A stretch of DNA of 64,000 nt from an uncultured Bacteroidales bacterium. Lineage in GTDB: Bacteria; Bacteroidota; Bacteroidia; Bacteroidales; Bacteroidaceae. The notes under the pieces were generated by a model. It was not told where the DNA came from. It saw only the letters and a list, made by a program, of their open reading frames with translations, and made no database searches. The stretch lies in NCBI GenBank assembly GCA_902760965.1, contig CACWIN010000005.1, forward strand, positions 26,018 to 90,017, in the 5' to 3' direction. Position numbers and translations under genes: made by a program. Positions 5,099-52,859 of the stretch are shown one piece after another (the stretch's first letter is position 1; the number at the start of each line of letters is the position of its first letter).

Positions 5099-5998
5099 TT
5101 ACTTCTGCAGAAGCTTGTCATTTGAACCCAGTACATCAACAATCTTGTGGATGTACATTTTCTTCATGTTCTCGCGTGCGGGTTTCAGGTACTGACGGGG
5201 ATCAAAGTGACTGGGGTTCTCAGCCAGGTACTTACGTACGGCAGCTGTCATAGCCAGACGTGAGTCAGAGTCAATGTTGATCTTGCATACAGCGCTCTTT
5301 GAAGCCTCGCGGAGCTGCTCTTCATTCTTCTCAATCTCATGCAGAACATCGAATGCCAATGGAGGAGGAACCAGCTTGCCGGTCTTGGGGTCACGTGTGC
5401 ACTGCTCGGGCTTGAACTTGTAAGCACCGTGTGAAGTACCTATTGAAATAGCCAGTGAATCGCAACCTGTACGGGTAGCGAAATCGATAACCTCCTCAGG
5501 CTTGGTATAGTGTGAAACCTCACTTGCAACCTCATCCTCAACGCCGGCCAGAACGCCCAGCTCAGCCTCAACGGTAACGTCATACTTGTGAGCGTACTCT
5601 ACAACCTTCTTTGTCAGAGCGATGTTATCCTCATAAGGAAGAGCGGAACCGTCAATCATAACTGATGAGAAGCCCATGTCAATGCAATCCTTGCAAAGCT
5701 CAAAGCTGTCACCGTGATCAAGGTGAAGAACGATCTCAGGATGGGCACAGCCAAGCTCCTTGGCATACTCTACAGCACCCTGTGCCATGTAACGCAGGAT
5801 AGTGGCGTTAGCGTAGTTGCGGGCACCTTTTGATACCTGCATGATAACCGGTGACTTGGTCTCGACTGCAGCCTGTACGATGGCCTGCATCTGCTCCATA
5901 GTGTTGAAATTGAATGCCGGGATAGCATAACCGCCCTTAACGGCTGCGGCGAACATTGCGCGGGTGTTTACAAGACCCAGTTCTTTGTAGCTTACCAT
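5099..5998 (-). CDS. fba: Class II fructose-bisphosphate aldolase with an internal in-frame gap
   Basis: By family, cleaves fructose 1,6-bisphosphate to DHAP and glyceraldehyde 3-phosphate using zinc. The zinc/active-site motif HLDHG (92-96), the GTSHGAYKF motif (His190) and the NIDSDSR substrate motif (241-247) are present. However the protein is 299 residues where this subgroup usually has about 334, and DVLHEIEKN (217-225) runs straight into EEQLREASK. The missing piece is the segment that normally carries the LHGSSSVP-type motif, including the third zinc-ligand His and phosphate-binding residues. No frameshift is seen. As written the enzyme is predicted inactive; a sequencing or assembly deletion is an equally serious explanation. 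A TAATTTCG -7-like box lies at 6051-6058. Confidence 0.85.
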   Translation of the reverse strand: MVSYKELGLVNTRAMFAAAVKGGYAIPAFNFNTMEQMQAIVQAAVETKSPVIMQVSKGARNYANATILRYMAQGAVEYAKELGCAHPEIVLHLDHGDSFELCKDCIDMGFSSVMIDGSALPYEDNIALTKKVVEYAHKYDVTVEAELGVLAGVEDEVASEVSHYTKPEEVIDFATRTGCDSLAISIGTSHGAYKFKPEQCTRDPKTGKLVPPPLAFDVLHEIEKNEEQLREASKSAVCKINIDSDSRLAMTAAVRKYLAENPSHFDPRQYLKPARENMKKMYIHKIVDVLGSNDKLLQK

Positions 5999-47892: not shown

Positions 47893-48477
47893 TTAAGCTT
47901 TTTCCCGCTTGATGACTTTCTTTTTGCGGACAGACCAGCCGAAGAAGCCCGTTGGGTTGGATACATCAAAGTATTCGCCATGAGTGTAGGCAATCAGATC
48001 CATTGCAGCCATATCCAGTTTGTCGTTCTCGTCAATGTACTTTTCATCGACCAGCACGTTCACCACCTCGGCCAGGAACATGTCGTGTGAGCCCAAAGGC
48101 TTGATATCAACAACCTTGCACTCAATTGAAACGGGCGATTCCTGAACAGTAGGTGCCGATACAATCTCAGCCTTGCCCGGAGTAATACCGGCCTCTTTGA
48201 ATTTGTCACAGTCACGGCCTGAACGTACGCCGCAAAAATCGGTAGCTCTGGCCAGTTGCTTTGTAGTAAGGTTTATTACAAAACAACCGTTGCGCTTTAT
48301 TATGTCATACGAATGGCGTTCCGGACGGATTGACACATAGCACATTGGAGGATTACTGCATACGGTTCCAGTCCACGAAACGGTAAGAACGTTATATTCC
48401 TGAGGTGTTGCTCCGCAGCTTACCAGCACTGCGGGCAAGGGATAGATCATTGTCCCTGGCTTAAAACTCTTTTTCAT
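47893..48477 (-). CDS. Flavin reductase family protein
   Basis: 194 residues, no signal. FMN-binding split-barrel protein: MIYPLPAVLVSCG, VLTVSWTGTVCSNPPMCYVSIRPERHSY, FVINLTT and the typical SIECKVVDIKPLGSHDMFLAEVVNV. It probably reduces free or bound flavin with NAD(P)H for a partner enzyme; the partner cannot be told. The start overlaps the rluA-family stop by 4 nt, so it is translated with that gene. Confidence 0.85.
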   Translation of the reverse strand: MKKSFKPGTMIYPLPAVLVSCGATPQEYNVLTVSWTGTVCSNPPMCYVSIRPERHSYDIIKRNGCFVINLTTKQLARATDFCGVRSGRDCDKFKEAGITPGKAEIVSAPTVQESPVSIECKVVDIKPLGSHDMFLAEVVNVLVDEKYIDENDKLDMAAMDLIAYTHGEYFDVSNPTGFFGWSVRKKKVIKREKA

Positions 48478-49388
48478 TTTTCGGGCTGTGTTAATTTTCG
48501 GAATACAGACGGTGTAGGCAGCGTAAAACGCATCAGTTCTCCTGTAACCGGATGTATGAATGAAAGACGGTAATTATGAAGCATAAGTCTGCGTACGGGG
48601 TTTGTCTCGGCTCCATATTTCATGTCGCCGGCAATAGGACAACCCATCTCGGACATATGCACTCTTATCTGGTTCTTTTTACCGGTAAATATCTCAACGT
48701 CAACAAGAGCATATCTGCCACGTGTCTGAATTACCTTATAATGCGTTACGGCAAGACGTCCAACGGTCTCATCGTTGGTAGAATGTACTCTAAGGTGTTC
48801 ATTCTGGGTAAGCAGGCTCTCAATTGTATCTTCAGGACGGGCCGGGATATTCTCGGTAACGCACACATAACGCCTTTCCTTTACATAAAAATCCCAGTTA
48901 GACCTCAATTCCATCATAAGGCTCTCGTCTTTGGCAAAGACAAGTATCCCCGACGTATACTGGTCAAGCCTGTGGCAAACATAAATTTCTGCATCGGGAT
49001 TATCGTGACGGACATAATCCCTTACAATATGAAAAGCATTCTTTTCACGGGCAGTGTCATTTGCGACAGACAGGAGTCCCGATGCTTTTTCTATCACCAC
49101 AAACCATTTGTCCTCATATATGACCTTTACCTGGGGATTGTTGAATTTATAGAAAGAACGCCCAAAATTTACCTGAACTATATCACCTGGTGATAAGGGA
49201 GTATCAAACTGTGTGACGGCAGATCCTTTAATGGCAATGTGTTTGTATTTGAGCATTGACTTAACCTCGGATTTACTCAAACCAGACAAAGATGAAAAAA
49301 GGAAAGGAAGCAATGTTACCTCCTCTTTCACTTCAAAATTCTTGATATTATCGGCTGTAAGCCTCCTGTTACCCTGATTACGGACCAT
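48474..49388 (-). CDS. RluA-family pseudouridine synthase
   Basis: 304 residues with an N-terminal S4 RNA-binding domain (LSKSEVKSMLKYKHIAIKGS, about 36-55) and an RluA-type catalytic domain: VVIEKASGLLSV, the motif CHRLDQYTSGILVFAKD with the catalytic Asp (about 144), and LVDVEIFTGKKNQIRVHMSEMGCPIAGDMKYG. Modifies uridines in rRNA or tRNA; exact site not assignable. The TAATTTTG -7 box of its own promoter lies at 49417-49424. Confidence 0.9.
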   Translation of the reverse strand: MVRNQGNRRLTADNIKNFEVKEEVTLLPFLFSSLSGLSKSEVKSMLKYKHIAIKGSAVTQFDTPLSPGDIVQVNFGRSFYKFNNPQVKVIYEDKWFVVIEKASGLLSVANDTAREKNAFHIVRDYVRHDNPDAEIYVCHRLDQYTSGILVFAKDESLMMELRSNWDFYVKERRYVCVTENIPARPEDTIESLLTQNEHLRVHSTNDETVGRLAVTHYKVIQTRGRYALVDVEIFTGKKNQIRVHMSEMGCPIAGDMKYGAETNPVRRLMLHNYRLSFIHPVTGELMRFTLPTPSVFRKLTQPEK

Positions 49389-49444
49389 TTAAAGACTTGA
49401 TTTTTCAATACGGGAACAAAATTATGAAAAAAAGTTCGTATCTC

Positions 49445-49550
49445 TTGGATATATTCAAACTGGATGTTATCTTTGCTCCGTGTTTTTCATGGTATTAGAT
49501 TTTATTTCAAGGTGAGCGGAACTGTGAAGTCCCGCTCACCTGCTTTTTTT
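49445..49550 (+). ncRNA. Type A small-RNA candidate, copy 2
   Basis: A complete stand-alone unit: TTG (49445-49447), 20 nt, TATCTTTG (49468-49475), then TTTTTCATGGTATTAGATTT, TTATTTCAAG, and a terminator hairpin AGGTGAGCGG/CCGCTCACCT (49510-49541) with GCTTTTTTT. Transcript of about 70 nt. Compared with copy 1 (12712-12789) the core and its position are the same but the stem sequence differs completely and still pairs, a mark of selected RNA structure. It lies between the divergent rluA gene and the next unit, so it belongs to no protein gene. Whether the nine-codon frame MVLDFISR* is used is open. Confidence 0.6.
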
Positions 49551-49698
49551 ACGTATTTTAGTTCTTTTTGTATGTAACATATACAATTCAGCATATAATC
49601 GAAACATCAATAAACAATATTTTATGGCCATTTCGTAAAAAATGAACGTTTTTCGCTACTTTTTTGAAAAAAATAGTAGATAATTAAAAAATTGACCA

Positions 49699-49821
49699 TA
49701 TATTTGTAGTGCAAACAAGGAGAGAAGATTGGTTGTGAAACCGGTTCATCTAAATTTCAATTATTGGAAAAGGACTATTGAGAACGAGAGACACGCTGTG
49801 TAAGCGAGTCTCTTGTTTTTT
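49699..49821 (+). ncRNA. Type B small-RNA candidate, copy 1
   Basis: TATATTTG -7 box (49699-49706), then GCAAACAAGGAGAGAAGATT, a small hairpin GGTT-GTGA-AACC, about 45 nt of A/T-rich sequence and a terminator stem AGAGAC.CGCT/AGCG.GTCTCT (49787-49813) with TGTTTTTT. Predicted transcript about 110 nt. The same 20-nt opening and an unlike but pairing GGTT...AACC hairpin occur at 52472-52577. No open reading frame of note. Lies downstream of the convergent receiver gene (stop at 49869). The remaining 49551-49690 is AT-rich and I see nothing in it. Confidence 0.6.
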
Positions 49822-49868
49822 ATATATGTTCCAAATTGATTGGGATTTCTGCCATTCAGGGCCTTAGG

Positions 49869-50309
49869 TCACCCTTTGGCATCGGCCTCCATAGCACGTA
49901 TTAGTTCTATCTGGCCTAAAACACTTTTTAAGAGTTTGTCGGTAGCTATTGGCTTTACCACAAAGTCATCGGCACCCAGATTAAGGGCACGCACAATATT
50001 ATCGTTGGTACTCAAAGCCGACATAACTATAATTCTTGACTGAGACAATTGAGGATCGGAACGTAACCTGCGTAGCACCTCATAACCGTCAATGACCGGC
50101 AGCATCAGTTCCAGCAACAGTAAAGACGGTTTTTCACTTAAAGCCTTATCAAGTACCTCCTGACCGTTAACGGCTGTAATAACCTCCAGATTCAAACGGC
50201 TCAACACTTTCTTGGCATATATCAGGCCAAAAGGTATATCATCGGCCACCAGGACTTTAATTCCTTTGGTTTCCGTTCCCAACAATTGGGTTTTATCCAT
50301 CTCTGCCAT
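49869..50309 (-). CDS. Stand-alone receiver-domain protein with Glu at the phosphoacceptor site
   Basis: 146 residues, only a CheY-like receiver domain and short ends. The acidic pair VLVADDIPFG (Asp23-Asp24), the Thr/Ser region IIVMSALS and the Lys of DFVVKPI are present, but at the phosphoacceptor position the sequence reads LLLLELMLP with Glu67 (codon GAA) instead of Asp. Such a change often mimics or abolishes phosphorylation. No output domain. It begins 4 bp after the membrane AraC gene, so the two are one operon, and it is not beside a kinase. Confidence 0.85.
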   Translation of the reverse strand: MAEMDKTQLLGTETKGIKVLVADDIPFGLIYAKKVLSRLNLEVITAVNGQEVLDKALSEKPSLLLLELMLPVIDGYEVLRRLRSDPQLSQSRIIVMSALSTNDNIVRALNLGADDFVVKPIATDKLLKSVLGQIELIRAMEADAKG

Positions 50310-50313
50310 CTTA

Positions 50314-51639
50314 TCAGGAATTAGTCTTGTTACGATGCATCAGTTCAGTATAACGGTCCATCCATATTTTAGGAGTGATACCTGTCATCTTTCTGAAAAC
50401 GGCATTGAATGCAGGGGCACTTGGATAACCGCAGGCATTGGCTATCTCTTTCTGGGTAGCATCAGGATGATTCAGAATATACTGCTCAGCATAGTTCACG
50501 CGGAGCATACTTATATAGTTCAGGAACGTCATCCCGTATGTTTCGCCAACATAATCCGCCAGGAACCCTTTCTTTACGCCCAGTTTTTCGGCCACATCAA
50601 AAAGTGATACACCCTGCTCCAGGAACATCCTGTCATATAGAACGCATTTTTCAAAGTTCTGTTCCAGCAACGCAAGCTCATCGGAGGTTCCTTCCTGCGA
50701 CTGCATGTTCAACGGCTGAGGCGACCAGGACGCGCCATAGATGCTGGACTGCATCACCATATCGGCATGCTGCTGCACAACAACGTTATCAGAACTGTTC
50801 CCTGCCGGTTCAACTCTTGGTTCATCCTGGATATACACCGGCACACGGAAACGCAACCTGTCCAACAGACCCCCGACAGACTGACGGCTATCCGGACCTA
50901 CGGATCCCACCAATGCTATCAGACTCAATACGACACAAGCCAACACACACATTGCCAACACCACCCAGACATTTCCGGTAGCATTACCCTTGCCAAAAAC
51001 CACCAGAATGACCAAAAGCATGATCATCACGAACGATGTTGAGTACTGAACCACATGGGTACTTGCCTGCCCTCCCCTCAGATAGAACATAAACAGATCC
51101 TTAAGGGAGCGGTCACCGCCTATGAATACCGATGTCATCCTAATGACAAAGTATATAAAGCCTGTAATGACAAAAGATTTATATACATAATTGATACACG
51201 CAAGGAAAACTAAAAGGCTACGGTCAGGAGACGAAGTAAACGGAGGTACCCCCAACAGAATGTTGTTAAGCACGTTCAGGGCATTCACATATCCTGCAAC
51301 GAACGTAGTCTCCATACACATCATGATGTGGACAAACGGAAGCGTGCAACATATGTTGAACATCACGTCATGCCTCTTTATCTTTGAAAAATGGTCAAGG
51401 TACGCTATAAGGATAGGAATGATGGTGAGCGAGACAAACTGGGTCAAGCAATAAAAATGCAGTATATACCTTTGGCCAAAATCATTATAGGAAAGGAATA
51501 TCATGAACAGGTAAAGGGAACATACAACAAAGAAAAACTCCAGTCTTCGGTGTAACGGCGACGATGGAGACATCAGCAGGTATCCCAAATACCAGAACAT
51601 GCTGATTAGGCACGGCAAAAGGATGAAATATTGCTGCAT
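50314..51639 (-). CDS. Membrane-bound AraC-family transcriptional regulator
   Basis: 441 residues. About seven hydrophobic helices fill the first 240 residues (FILLPCLISMFWYLGYLLM; FVVCSLYLFMIFL; LTIIPILIAYL; and on to VLAMCVLACVVLSLIALV), then a linker, then a C-terminal AraC-type double helix-turn-helix (about 335-432) with SLFDVAEKLGVKKGFLADYV and TQKEIANACGYPSAPAFNAVFRKMTGITP. A membrane sensor that binds DNA directly is implied. No ligand-binding cupin domain. A TATCTTTG -7 box lies at 51668-51675. Targets unknown; the neighbouring small-RNA units are possible. Confidence 0.8.
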   Translation of the reverse strand: MQQYFILLPCLISMFWYLGYLLMSPSSPLHRRLEFFFVVCSLYLFMIFLSYNDFGQRYILHFYCLTQFVSLTIIPILIAYLDHFSKIKRHDVMFNICCTLPFVHIMMCMETTFVAGYVNALNVLNNILLGVPPFTSSPDRSLLVFLACINYVYKSFVITGFIYFVIRMTSVFIGGDRSLKDLFMFYLRGGQASTHVVQYSTSFVMIMLLVILVVFGKGNATGNVWVVLAMCVLACVVLSLIALVGSVGPDSRQSVGGLLDRLRFRVPVYIQDEPRVEPAGNSSDNVVVQQHADMVMQSSIYGASWSPQPLNMQSQEGTSDELALLEQNFEKCVLYDRMFLEQGVSLFDVAEKLGVKKGFLADYVGETYGMTFLNYISMLRVNYAEQYILNHPDATQKEIANACGYPSAPAFNAVFRKMTGITPKIWMDRYTELMHRNKTNS

Positions 51640-51794
51640 CTATGCTGTAATGAACAAGTTACAACTGCAAAGATATCCAATTTGATTGGCATTAAAAAAT
51701 AATTTTAATAATTAAATTAATAATCGCATGTTCAAAAAAACATACAAACTTGAATAACATATGCCGGAAAAGAAAAAGATTGATTCATTTATAT

Positions 51795-51802
51795 TATCTT
51801 TG
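51795..51802 (+). promoter_or_regulatory. -7 box of the tyrosine phosphatase gene
   Basis: TATCTTTG, perfect match, 19 nt before the ATG at 51822. It lies back to back with the AraC gene's -7 box (51668-51675) in a 182-bp divergent gap. Confidence 0.5.
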
Positions 51803-51821
51803 CGCCAAAATAGTCCAATTC

Positions 51822-52313
51822 ATGCAATCCTCAATCAACAAGGTCATTAGCATACTGTTTGTATGTCACGGAAACATCTGCCGTTCCCCTATGGCCGAGT
51901 TCATGTTCAAGGATATGGTACAGTCCAAAGGATTGGAGCACAGATTCTACACAGAATCGGCCGCTGTATCAACCGAGGAGATTGGCAATTCCATTTACCC
52001 TCCCGCCAAACGTTGCCTGACTGCGCACGGCATTCCATTTGACAAAAGCAAAACGGCCAGACAGATCACCCGTTCGGATTACAACCGGTTTGACATTATC
52101 ATTTGCATGGACCGGATGAATCTGAGATGGTTAAAATACATCATTCCTGATGACCCGGAGCAAAAAGTCAAGCTTATGATGTCATACGCCGGATTAGACC
52201 GCGATGTGGCCGATCCGTGGTATACCGGTGATTTTGAAACAACCTACCGTGACCTTGACCAGTCACTGGAAGCATTGCTTAACCAACTATTACAGAAAAC
52301 ATCCATTGAGTGA
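51822..52313 (+). CDS. Low-molecular-weight protein tyrosine phosphatase
   Basis: 163 residues. The CX5R active-site loop is SILFVCHGNICRSPMAEF (about 10-27) with the catalytic Cys and Arg, and the general-acid Asp lies in VADPWY (about 130). This small cytoplasmic phosphatase probably acts on tyrosine kinases of capsule or polysaccharide export or on other proteins. A longer frame upstream (from 51750) overlaps the promoter; the ATG at 51822 is preferred. Confidence 0.9.
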   Translation: MQSSINKVISILFVCHGNICRSPMAEFMFKDMVQSKGLEHRFYTESAAVSTEEIGNSIYPPAKRCLTAHGIPFDKSKTARQITRSDYNRFDIIICMDRMNLRWLKYIIPDDPEQKVKLMMSYAGLDRDVADPWYTGDFETTYRDLDQSLEALLNQLLQKTSIE

Positions 52314-52354
52314 GTAATAAAATCCTTTTCCATTAATCATTTAAACCAATAATT

Positions 52355-52426
52355 ATGCATACCGTATTGATAGTTGTAGGTATAATCGCAGCATGGTTCA
52401 TATTTAGGGCAGCAGGCGAAGATTGA
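52355..52426 (+). CDS. Possible 23-residue single-pass membrane peptide
   Basis: The frame MHTVLIVVGIIAAWFIFRAA, then GED and stop, has one hydrophobic helix and a charged end. It follows the phosphatase stop by 41 nt on the same strand and precedes the type B unit by about 45 nt. It has no Shine-Dalgarno sequence (normal here) and no promoter of its own. Such peptides are often missed; this one may also be chance. Confidence 0.35.
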   Translation: MHTVLIVVGIIAAWFIFRAAGED

Positions 52427-52449
52427 AACCTTTTTTAAGGATAGTTATA

Positions 52450-52577
52450 TTGCTATCTTGATGATTTGATGTATTTTTGCCCCCGCAAACAAGGAGAGAA
52501 GATTTGGTTGGTTTCTGTAACCAATATCCGAATTTTCGGGAGGCAGGATAGCTGGGACAGCTGTCCTGACTTTTTTT
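52450..52577 (+). ncRNA. Type B small-RNA candidate, copy 2
   Basis: Full promoter: TTG (52450-52452), 19 nt, TATTTTTG (52472-52479). Transcript begins near 52485 with GCAAACAAGGAGAGAAGATT, then GGTTGGTTTCTGTAACC folding into a hairpin, a second small hairpin CCGAATTTTCGG, and a perfect 11-bp terminator stem (52544-52568) with ACTTTTTTT. About 90 nt. The 20-nt opening is identical to copy 1 (49699-49821), while loops and terminators differ. No reading frame. A stand-alone gene between the small peptide and tRNA-Arg, which is on the other strand. Confidence 0.65.
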
Positions 52578-52607
52578 GGAGGCATATTAATACCGAATAA
52601 AATTTAA

Positions 52608-52641
52608 GGTGTCCATAGAACAATGTTCCGGACACCTTTTT
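52608..52641. terminator. Bidirectional terminator after tRNA-Arg
   Basis: Stem GGTGTCC (52608-52614) with GGACACC (52630-52636); T run TTTTT on the plus strand and a T-rich run on the minus strand. It ends the tRNA-Arg transcript on the minus strand and may back up the type B terminator. Confidence 0.55.
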
Positions 52642-52647
52642 ATGTCG

Positions 52648-52721
52648 TGATTCCGTTGGGATTCGAACCCAAGACCCACAGCTTAGAAGGCTGTTGCTCT
52701 ATCCAGCTGAGCTACGGAACC
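52648..52721 (-). tRNA. tRNA-Arg (anticodon UCU)
   Basis: 74 nt on the minus strand: acceptor GGTTCCG paired with CGGAATC, D arm GCTCAGCTGGATAGAGC, anticodon loop CTTCTAA with TCT, T arm TTGGGTTCGAATCCCAA. CCA is not encoded. A TAAATTTG -7 box lies at 52770-52777, about 50 nt upstream. No integrase or attachment site next to it was found. Confidence 0.95.
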
Positions 52722-52859
52722 GAACCTGAAGGTGAGGTCAACGATGTTAACCAACCTGTTTTGCGACCGCAAATTTAGCAAAACTTCCGTTCAAAAAAGA
52801 CAAAGCGGCACAGAAAAATGCATTAAACCATGCATAATAAAAAAAATAGACGTCACACG

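Follow-up and report, generated by a model that had tools for sequence, protein, structure and literature searches.

A modular family of predicted small RNAs found so far in one genus of Bacteroidaceae

Introduction

Does the intergenic DNA between a phosphatase gene and a tRNA-Arg gene in an uncultured member of the Bacteroidaceae encode a small RNA of its own, and if so, what might that RNA do? This DNA lies in a window of 64,000 nucleotides (the whole stretch that was analysed) from a 2.32-Mb draft genome of 93 contigs that is 81% complete. A sequence-only reading of the window had proposed that this site (copy 2) and another nearby (copy 1) belong to one small-RNA family, type B.

The available part of a report on the small RNA FopS describes the Bacteroidota as a group without homologs of the classical RNA chaperones (PMC11697453). 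The same part presents FopS (RF04319) as paralogous sRNAs of Bacteroides, with several copies, a sigma-ABfr promoter, a conserved unpaired 5' end, and a Rho-independent terminator; the RRM protein RbpB as the partner of FopS in Bacteroides; and BTnc020/054/075/172/213/266 as a second paralogous sRNA family, with six members, in B. thetaiotaomicron (PMC11697453). GibS (RF04182), in the accessible part of its own report, has a conserved unpaired 5' seed and a PM2 promoter (PMC7366714).

Results

Copy 2 reads as a self-contained small-RNA gene

Copy 2 reads as a free-standing gene for a structured small RNA, with its own terminator and a putative promoter of the housekeeping type of the Bacteroidota (Table 1). 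The sigma-ABfr promoter consensus is TTTG / TAnnTTTG. The promoter that had been proposed, TTG followed after 19 nt by TATTTTTG, is indeed present, and five bases separate TATTTTTG from the predicted start of the RNA, GCAAACAAGGAGAGAAGATT. (A sigma-70 scan of 49400-52800, which does not cover this type of promoter, gave 9 sites versus 8.5 expected.) We infer that copy 2 is transcribed.

The minimum free energy of copy 2 is -36.8 kcal/mol, versus -20.3 ± 3.1 for shuffled sequences (z = -5.3; 0/200 shuffles equal). The fold contains the two hairpins, and the 11-bp terminator with seven T, that the sequence-only reading described. Across 49400-52800, there are 5 terminator-like sites versus 2.7 expected, and only the terminator of copy 2 has 11 pairs. 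The claim of a self-contained unit of about 90 nt holds up except for the length, which is closer to 93 nt: as far as the sequence goes, copy 2 has the promoter and the intrinsic terminator of an intergenic sRNA, and the compensatory changes described below point to a selected RNA structure as well. The neighboring gene is tRNA-Arg, as claimed. The gap that separates the phosphatase gene from copy 2 also contains, at 52355-52426, a 23-codon open reading frame for a hydrophobic peptide, MHTVLIVVGIIAAWFIFRAAGED.

Table 1. Features of the two small-RNA loci and their surroundings (positions in the window)
Feature	Position	Strand	Details
Putative promoter of copy 2	52450-52479	+	TTG 52450-52452, 19-nt spacer, TATTTTTG 52472-52479; sigma-ABfr type
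Predicted small RNA, copy 2 (subtype B2, ~93 nt)	52485-52577	+	fold, covariation, R1 model
M1 in copy 2 (unpaired 5' element)	52485-52497	+	GCAAACAAGGA plus GA
Stem-loop I of copy 2	52498-52537	+	arms 52498-52507 / 52528-52537
Predicted intrinsic terminator of copy 2	52544-52577	+	11-bp stem 52544-52554/52558-52568, GGA loop, T7 52571-52577
-7 box of copy 1	49699-49706	+	TATATTTG
Predicted small RNA, copy 1 (subtype B1)	49711-49824	+	M1, GUGA-loop hairpin, M2, terminator; 3' end approximate
M2 element	49755-49775	+	TTTCAATTATTGGAAAAGGAC; common to B1 and B3, nearly unchanged in B4
FopS-like small RNA 5' of copy 1	49480-49552	+	RF04319 41.5 bits, below gathering score of 56; -7 box 49468-49475
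Low-molecular-weight protein tyrosine phosphatase, upstream of copy 2	51822-52313	+	PF01451 8.8e-35; start codon inferred
Response-regulator receiver protein, between the copies	49869-50309	-	PF00072
AraC-type regulator, between the copies	50314-51639	-	PF12833
RNA pseudouridine synthase, flanking the FopS-like RNA and copy 1	48474-49388	-	PF00849
tRNA-Arg (TCT)	52647-52721	-	

Copies 1 and 2 belong to a modular family

Both copies open with the same 20 nt, as had been reported: GCAAACAAGGAGAGAAGATT is found exactly at 52485-52504 and 49711-49730. Just 0.02 sites are expected at up to 3 mismatches, and no shuffle (0/100) had two. Type B does appear to be a genuine paralogous family, with the likeness between these two copies lying mainly in their identical first 20 nt; little else in them is alike. 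Conservation in close relatives, which had been named as a check, was also found.

Members start with GCAAACAAGGA, and their bodies differ. B1 members consist of M1, a GUGA-loop hairpin, M2, and a terminator. B3 members have M1, the GUGA-loop hairpin, and M2, and end in a different hairpin with a weak run of T. In B4, M1 is joined straight to M2, while B2 members have M1, a stem of ~10 bp, and a terminator, and lack M2.

To find members, we used models built from six B2 sequences (R1) or from 17 B1/B3 cores (R2). R1 scores copy 2, which is one of its own 6 building sequences, at 102.3 bits. Among 37 genomes of one Bacteroidaceae genus, R1 matches 28 at E ≤ 0.05, unrelated terminators included, and R2 matches 27 at E ≤ 0.01. 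On inspection, we judged seven weak R1 matches, plus three more (L371-L373), to be unrelated terminators. We count 28/37 genomes with at least one member, namely the 27 matched by R2 and G001, whose B2 copy lacks a T run. Neither model gave a convincing member in the other 9/37, two of which are 96 and 98% complete. M1 is present in 55/57 of the matches found by the models; it is changed in L284 and cut off in L280.

We also searched for the 5' element itself. The exact 16-mer ACAAGGAGAGAAGATT is in 16/37 genomes of the genus, including the window's own, and among 24 genomes from other families, one (G042) has a one-mismatch chance site. For the 11-mer GCAAACAA[GA]GA, we examined 133 distinct sites, of which 66 have TTTG or TAnnTTYG 3-6 nt upstream. 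These 66 comprise 59 members and 7 unrelated sites, and the 67 unboxed sites include one member (L277, with a variant box). The 59 boxed members, classified by pattern and then by eye, are 26 B1, 16 B2, 12 B3, 2 B4, and 3 with the 5' element and hairpin only. Altogether the family has about 59 distinct member sequences, with 1 to 6 copies per carrier genome. Two sequences are unusual. At about 2000-2084 of L280, a B2-type terminator abuts a B3 hairpin, an arrangement that would result if two members had recombined. L374 (G020:C30:48404-48472) is a decayed copy that keeps an M2-like body and has lost M1 and the promoter box.

The family has so far been found only in this genus. When R2 was run against 399 genomes of the family Bacteroidaceae (at least 33 of them from the genus), with stricter filters that lose weak matches, it hit 24 genomes from the genus and, outside it, G550 alone (E = 0.007). 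This was the sole weak match in about 366 genomes from other genera; it lacks a promoter and has a different body, so we judged it to be chance. We also searched 247 genomes of the order for the 20-mer, allowing up to 3 mismatches; every match outside the genus has 2 or more. All six two-mismatch sites outside the genus were read and none has a promoter. There were roughly 100 three-mismatch sites, of which a minority were inspected; the out-of-genus matches that were inspected lack the promoter or belong to another gene, and we judged them to be chance. The reversed control of the 20-mer also matches, about half as often. More broadly, in a collection of 84,980 species, a promoter with the 15-mer GCAAACAAGGAGAGA was found in 51 stretches: 42 contain members (counting L157), and the other nine are the start of tRNA-Ser (three), Prevotella (two), and four others. 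In L119 and L167 (Prevotella), the promoter and GCAAACAAGGAGAGA alone are followed by unrelated, repeat-rich sequence.

Compensatory changes indicate selection on the RNA

Comparison of its members gives good support for type B as a genuine RNA family. In the alignment of 16 B2 sequences, which was fitted to the model and therefore leans towards the structure, 90.3% of cells pair. In the same 16 sequences, 15 pairs (47 cells) changed on both sides, versus 6.8 pairs and 13.1 cells in shuffles (0/500 equal) and no more than 4 pairs and 7 cells in slid controls. In the hairpin of B1 and B3 (24 distinct rows), 4 pairs changed on both sides versus 0.8 ± 0.8 in shuffles (1/500); further pair types in these rows were not above shuffles (449/500). 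Some members have swapped the whole lower stem: GGGGC/GCCCC, AAGGC/GCCUU, or GCGGAG/CUCCGC. Because of these compensatory changes in B2 and in the B1/B3 hairpin, we think that selection acts on the RNA. RNAalifold found no structure in an alignment of mixed subtypes; we think that the mixing is the cause.

The promoter is conserved along with the RNA. The promoter box is in neither model, yet TAnnTTYG lies 3-6 nt upstream of 39/41 and 16/16 matches, or 55/57 overall, versus 276 of 127,600 window positions (0.2%). On average, B1 sequences are 96.9% identical in the core, 50.3% in the upstream flank, and 31.5% in the downstream flank (25 sequences, sampled as 100 pairs; of the 26, only the diverged G035 one was left out). 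M1 is nearly invariant, and it is unpaired in the B2 folds that we made. In the B1 folds (copy 1, L004, L006, and L011), M1 is partly paired in the minimum-energy structure. We folded 12 relatives; the G001 copy, which lacks a T run, did not outdo its shuffles (z = -0.9).

Copy 1 and a FopS-like RNA share a conserved locus

Copy 1 also folds well (z = -4.3; 1/200 shuffles equal). We considered whether it is instead a coding sequence (by eye, 22 codons from a GTG start), and rejected this: in several species, 1- and 2-nt indels inside the otherwise invariant B1 core shift the frame, so the core is not coding.

A FopS-like RNA was found at all of the B1 loci scanned (20/20; 38-45 bits with RF04319, all below the gathering score of 56). 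It is on the same strand as B1, 126-268 nt to its 5' side (19 loci measured). Across the 23 B1 loci compared, some of them in truncated stretches, the flanks include the AraC-type regulator gene in 20 and the pseudouridine-synthase gene in 16. Of 12 genomes that lack a good match to B1, ten yielded a close homolog of the pseudouridine synthase when we looked for it. In nine of these ten, the stretch has neither the FopS-like RNA nor B1, and the adjoining sequence appears by eye to be coding; the tenth (G035) has the FopS-like RNA and a diverged B1.

This FopS-like RNA, with its own promoter, adjoins every scanned B1 even though the RRM_1 domain was found in only 5/37 genomes of the genus. RRM_1 was not found in the other 32, including the window's own (81% complete); most of these genomes are incomplete drafts. 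We asked if B1 might be a sponge for the FopS-like RNA and discarded the idea, as pairing between them was not beyond shuffles (16 to 178/200 equal, 19 loci).

The sequence-only reading suggested that the two copies arose by duplication or that the genes between them were inserted there. We found no support for this: copy 1 is a B1 member at a site common to many species, and copy 2 is a B2 member with a different body. As the copies differ in subtype, they are unlikely to stem from a recent local duplication. In the named loci that we compared, the order phosphatase then B2 occurs in this genome and in one other species, G008. In L147, L156, and L160, the phosphatase is near B1, and no second copy lies within the sequence stretch examined.

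Type B compared with known small-RNA families

Type-B RNAs resemble FopS in having several copies, a sigma-ABfr promoter, an unpaired 5' end, and a terminator, and in being found in Bacteroidaceae, at least as FopS appears in the available part of its report (PMC11697453). Unlike FopS, they have a conserved stem-loop and interchangeable modules, and RRM_1 was not found in most carriers. Neither copy 1 nor copy 2 matches the FopS model at E ≤ 5, the same goes at E ≤ 0.5 for the members at a further 20 + 13 loci, and the 5' end of type B is GCAAACAAGGA instead of the FopS 5' seed R1 (GUGUUUUUCAU..UUAGAU). The FopS-like RNA is a separate neighbor of copy 1 and not a type-B member.

GibS has an unpaired conserved 5' end as type B does, but by the accessible part of its report it has a PM2 promoter and an unrelated 5' sequence (PMC7366714); also, no type-B member matched the RF04182 model. 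The BTnc family, like type B a paralogous sRNA family, would differ in its placement beside transposases and invertases, as reported with FopS (PMC11697453).

In the stretches scanned, no family in Rfam 15 matches a type-B member. In the full-text literature, a 13-mer of the 5' end turned up only in papers with titles on unrelated subjects (most subscription papers and preprints are outside that coverage), and the literature we found on paralogous or multicopy Bacteroides sRNAs is the FopS work. We class type B as a family that is new, within a kind of RNA that is known.

Discussion

What might copy 2 do? We favor a trans-acting, post-transcriptional regulatory RNA with a mode of action like that of FopS, at a probability of about 0.5. 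M1, the nearly invariant, unpaired 5' end, would serve as the surface for contacts, with a stabilizing body formed by the stem-loop and terminator. The copies at several loci would differ in how they are regulated, in dose, and in M2, a second conserved element that B1, B3, and B4 carry. Because GibS and FopS have a conserved unpaired 5' end, M1 might be a base-pairing seed, and its partners would presumably be mRNAs.

We searched for such partners in 348 start regions (about one fifth of this genome). Neither M1 nor M2 paired better than dinucleotide shuffles did (36/40 and 26/40 equal), and the FopS 5' motif did modestly better in the same test (4/40 equal). An earlier screen of 251 start regions looked promising (0/60 shuffles equal for M1 and 1/60 for M2), and we set it aside: for M1 and M2 alike, the top match was a family member read in antisense. 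In four genomes, there are 53 exact complements of the M1 core versus 34 for the reversed control. We examined 30 of the 53; no start-region site recurred in two genomes, and 8 were the other strand of family members themselves. One orthologous pair of sites (L318 and L324) is on the antisense strand within a coding gene and was rejected. We also rejected a Shine-Dalgarno decoy, as some members lack GGAG (GGAAGAG, AAAGAA).

The negative pairing test on the 348 regions would fit another explanation, which is that the RNAs soak up an RNA-binding protein or the ribosome with unpaired purine elements beside hairpins: M1 (ACAAGGA) and the tail of M2 (AAAAGGAC). These two elements have a common core, AAGGA, that is kept while the bodies change. 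CsrB/RsmZ-type titrating RNAs have unpaired GGA-type motifs next to hairpins, as type B does, and ACAAGGA within M1 is the core of the CsrA consensus. But type B has just one or two such motifs, and CsrA was found in 0/37 genomes of the genus, so we dismissed titration of CsrA. RRM_1 was found in only 5/37, no candidate protein emerged, and copy 2 lacks M2. We consider titration unlikely, if worth keeping in mind.

On a more speculative note, the family might be a modular system of RNA tags: the 11-nt M1, with or without the GNRA-loop hairpin, would be reused on sRNA bodies and on an mRNA leader and be read by an RNA-binding factor that replaces RbpB, while copy 1 and the FopS-like RNA would form a linked two-RNA cassette. 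We think the odds are clearly against this.

The genomic settings of other members bear on whether the RNAs are cis-acting, that is, terminated 5' leaders or attenuators of adjoining genes. A hexapeptide acetyltransferase gene follows B3 in 6/14 B3-type loci (for one of the 14, L127, there are 499 nt only to inspect). Its start is 163-164 nt from B3 in 5/14 loci, and the 5' part of the sixth locus is cut off. Also, at one locus in each of two species (at 5807 on the minus strand of L128, and in L328), an esterase gene has M1 and the hairpin directly before it as its 5' leader. However, the sites of B2 and B3 vary and so do their downstream genes, in place of the constant downstream gene of a riboswitch or leader; next after copy 2 comes a tRNA gene on the opposite strand, and next after copy 1 a regulator gene that is transcribed towards it. 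It is therefore doubtful that leaders explain the family.

A phage-type lysozyme gene (PF00959) is in the flank of B2 or B3 copies at five loci (L123, L151, L154, L158, and L162). Most of these have small neighbors as well, a coiled-coil protein of ~103 amino acids and a protein of 177-188 amino acids. This neighborhood might be a lysis module that has become domesticated.

Multiple copies at sites that differ from species to species, the B2-terminator/B3-body junction in L280, and the decay of L374 without M1 are what one might see if type B were a piece of DNA copied around the genome (as a promoter cassette or mobile repeat) whose RNA has no function. The compensatory changes argue against this, as they point to selection on the RNA. 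Nor do phages seem to spread it: copy 2 has no match in phage records, and exact M2 is absent from viral contigs. (We found 77 viral stretches with the 15-mer GCAAACAAGGAGAGA; none has the TTTG spacing, and we took them to be chance.) A functionless element seems improbable. Finally, although copy 2 is on the same strand as the phosphatase gene and about 170 nt past its stop codon, it is very improbable that it is just a terminator in the 3' UTR of that mRNA, as it has its own -7 box, and other B2 members adjoin other genes and still keep the promoter and M1.

The Bacteroidota small-RNA families that we found described in the literature are from Bacteroides. A trans-acting regulatory RNA remains our preferred reading of copy 2. 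Type B is a further family, strongly supported by comparison of relatives from the rumen and the horse gut, and linked at one locus to a FopS-like RNA. Most genomes of the carrier genus lack a detectable RRM_1 domain, which raises a testable question: how might such RNAs act without RbpB?
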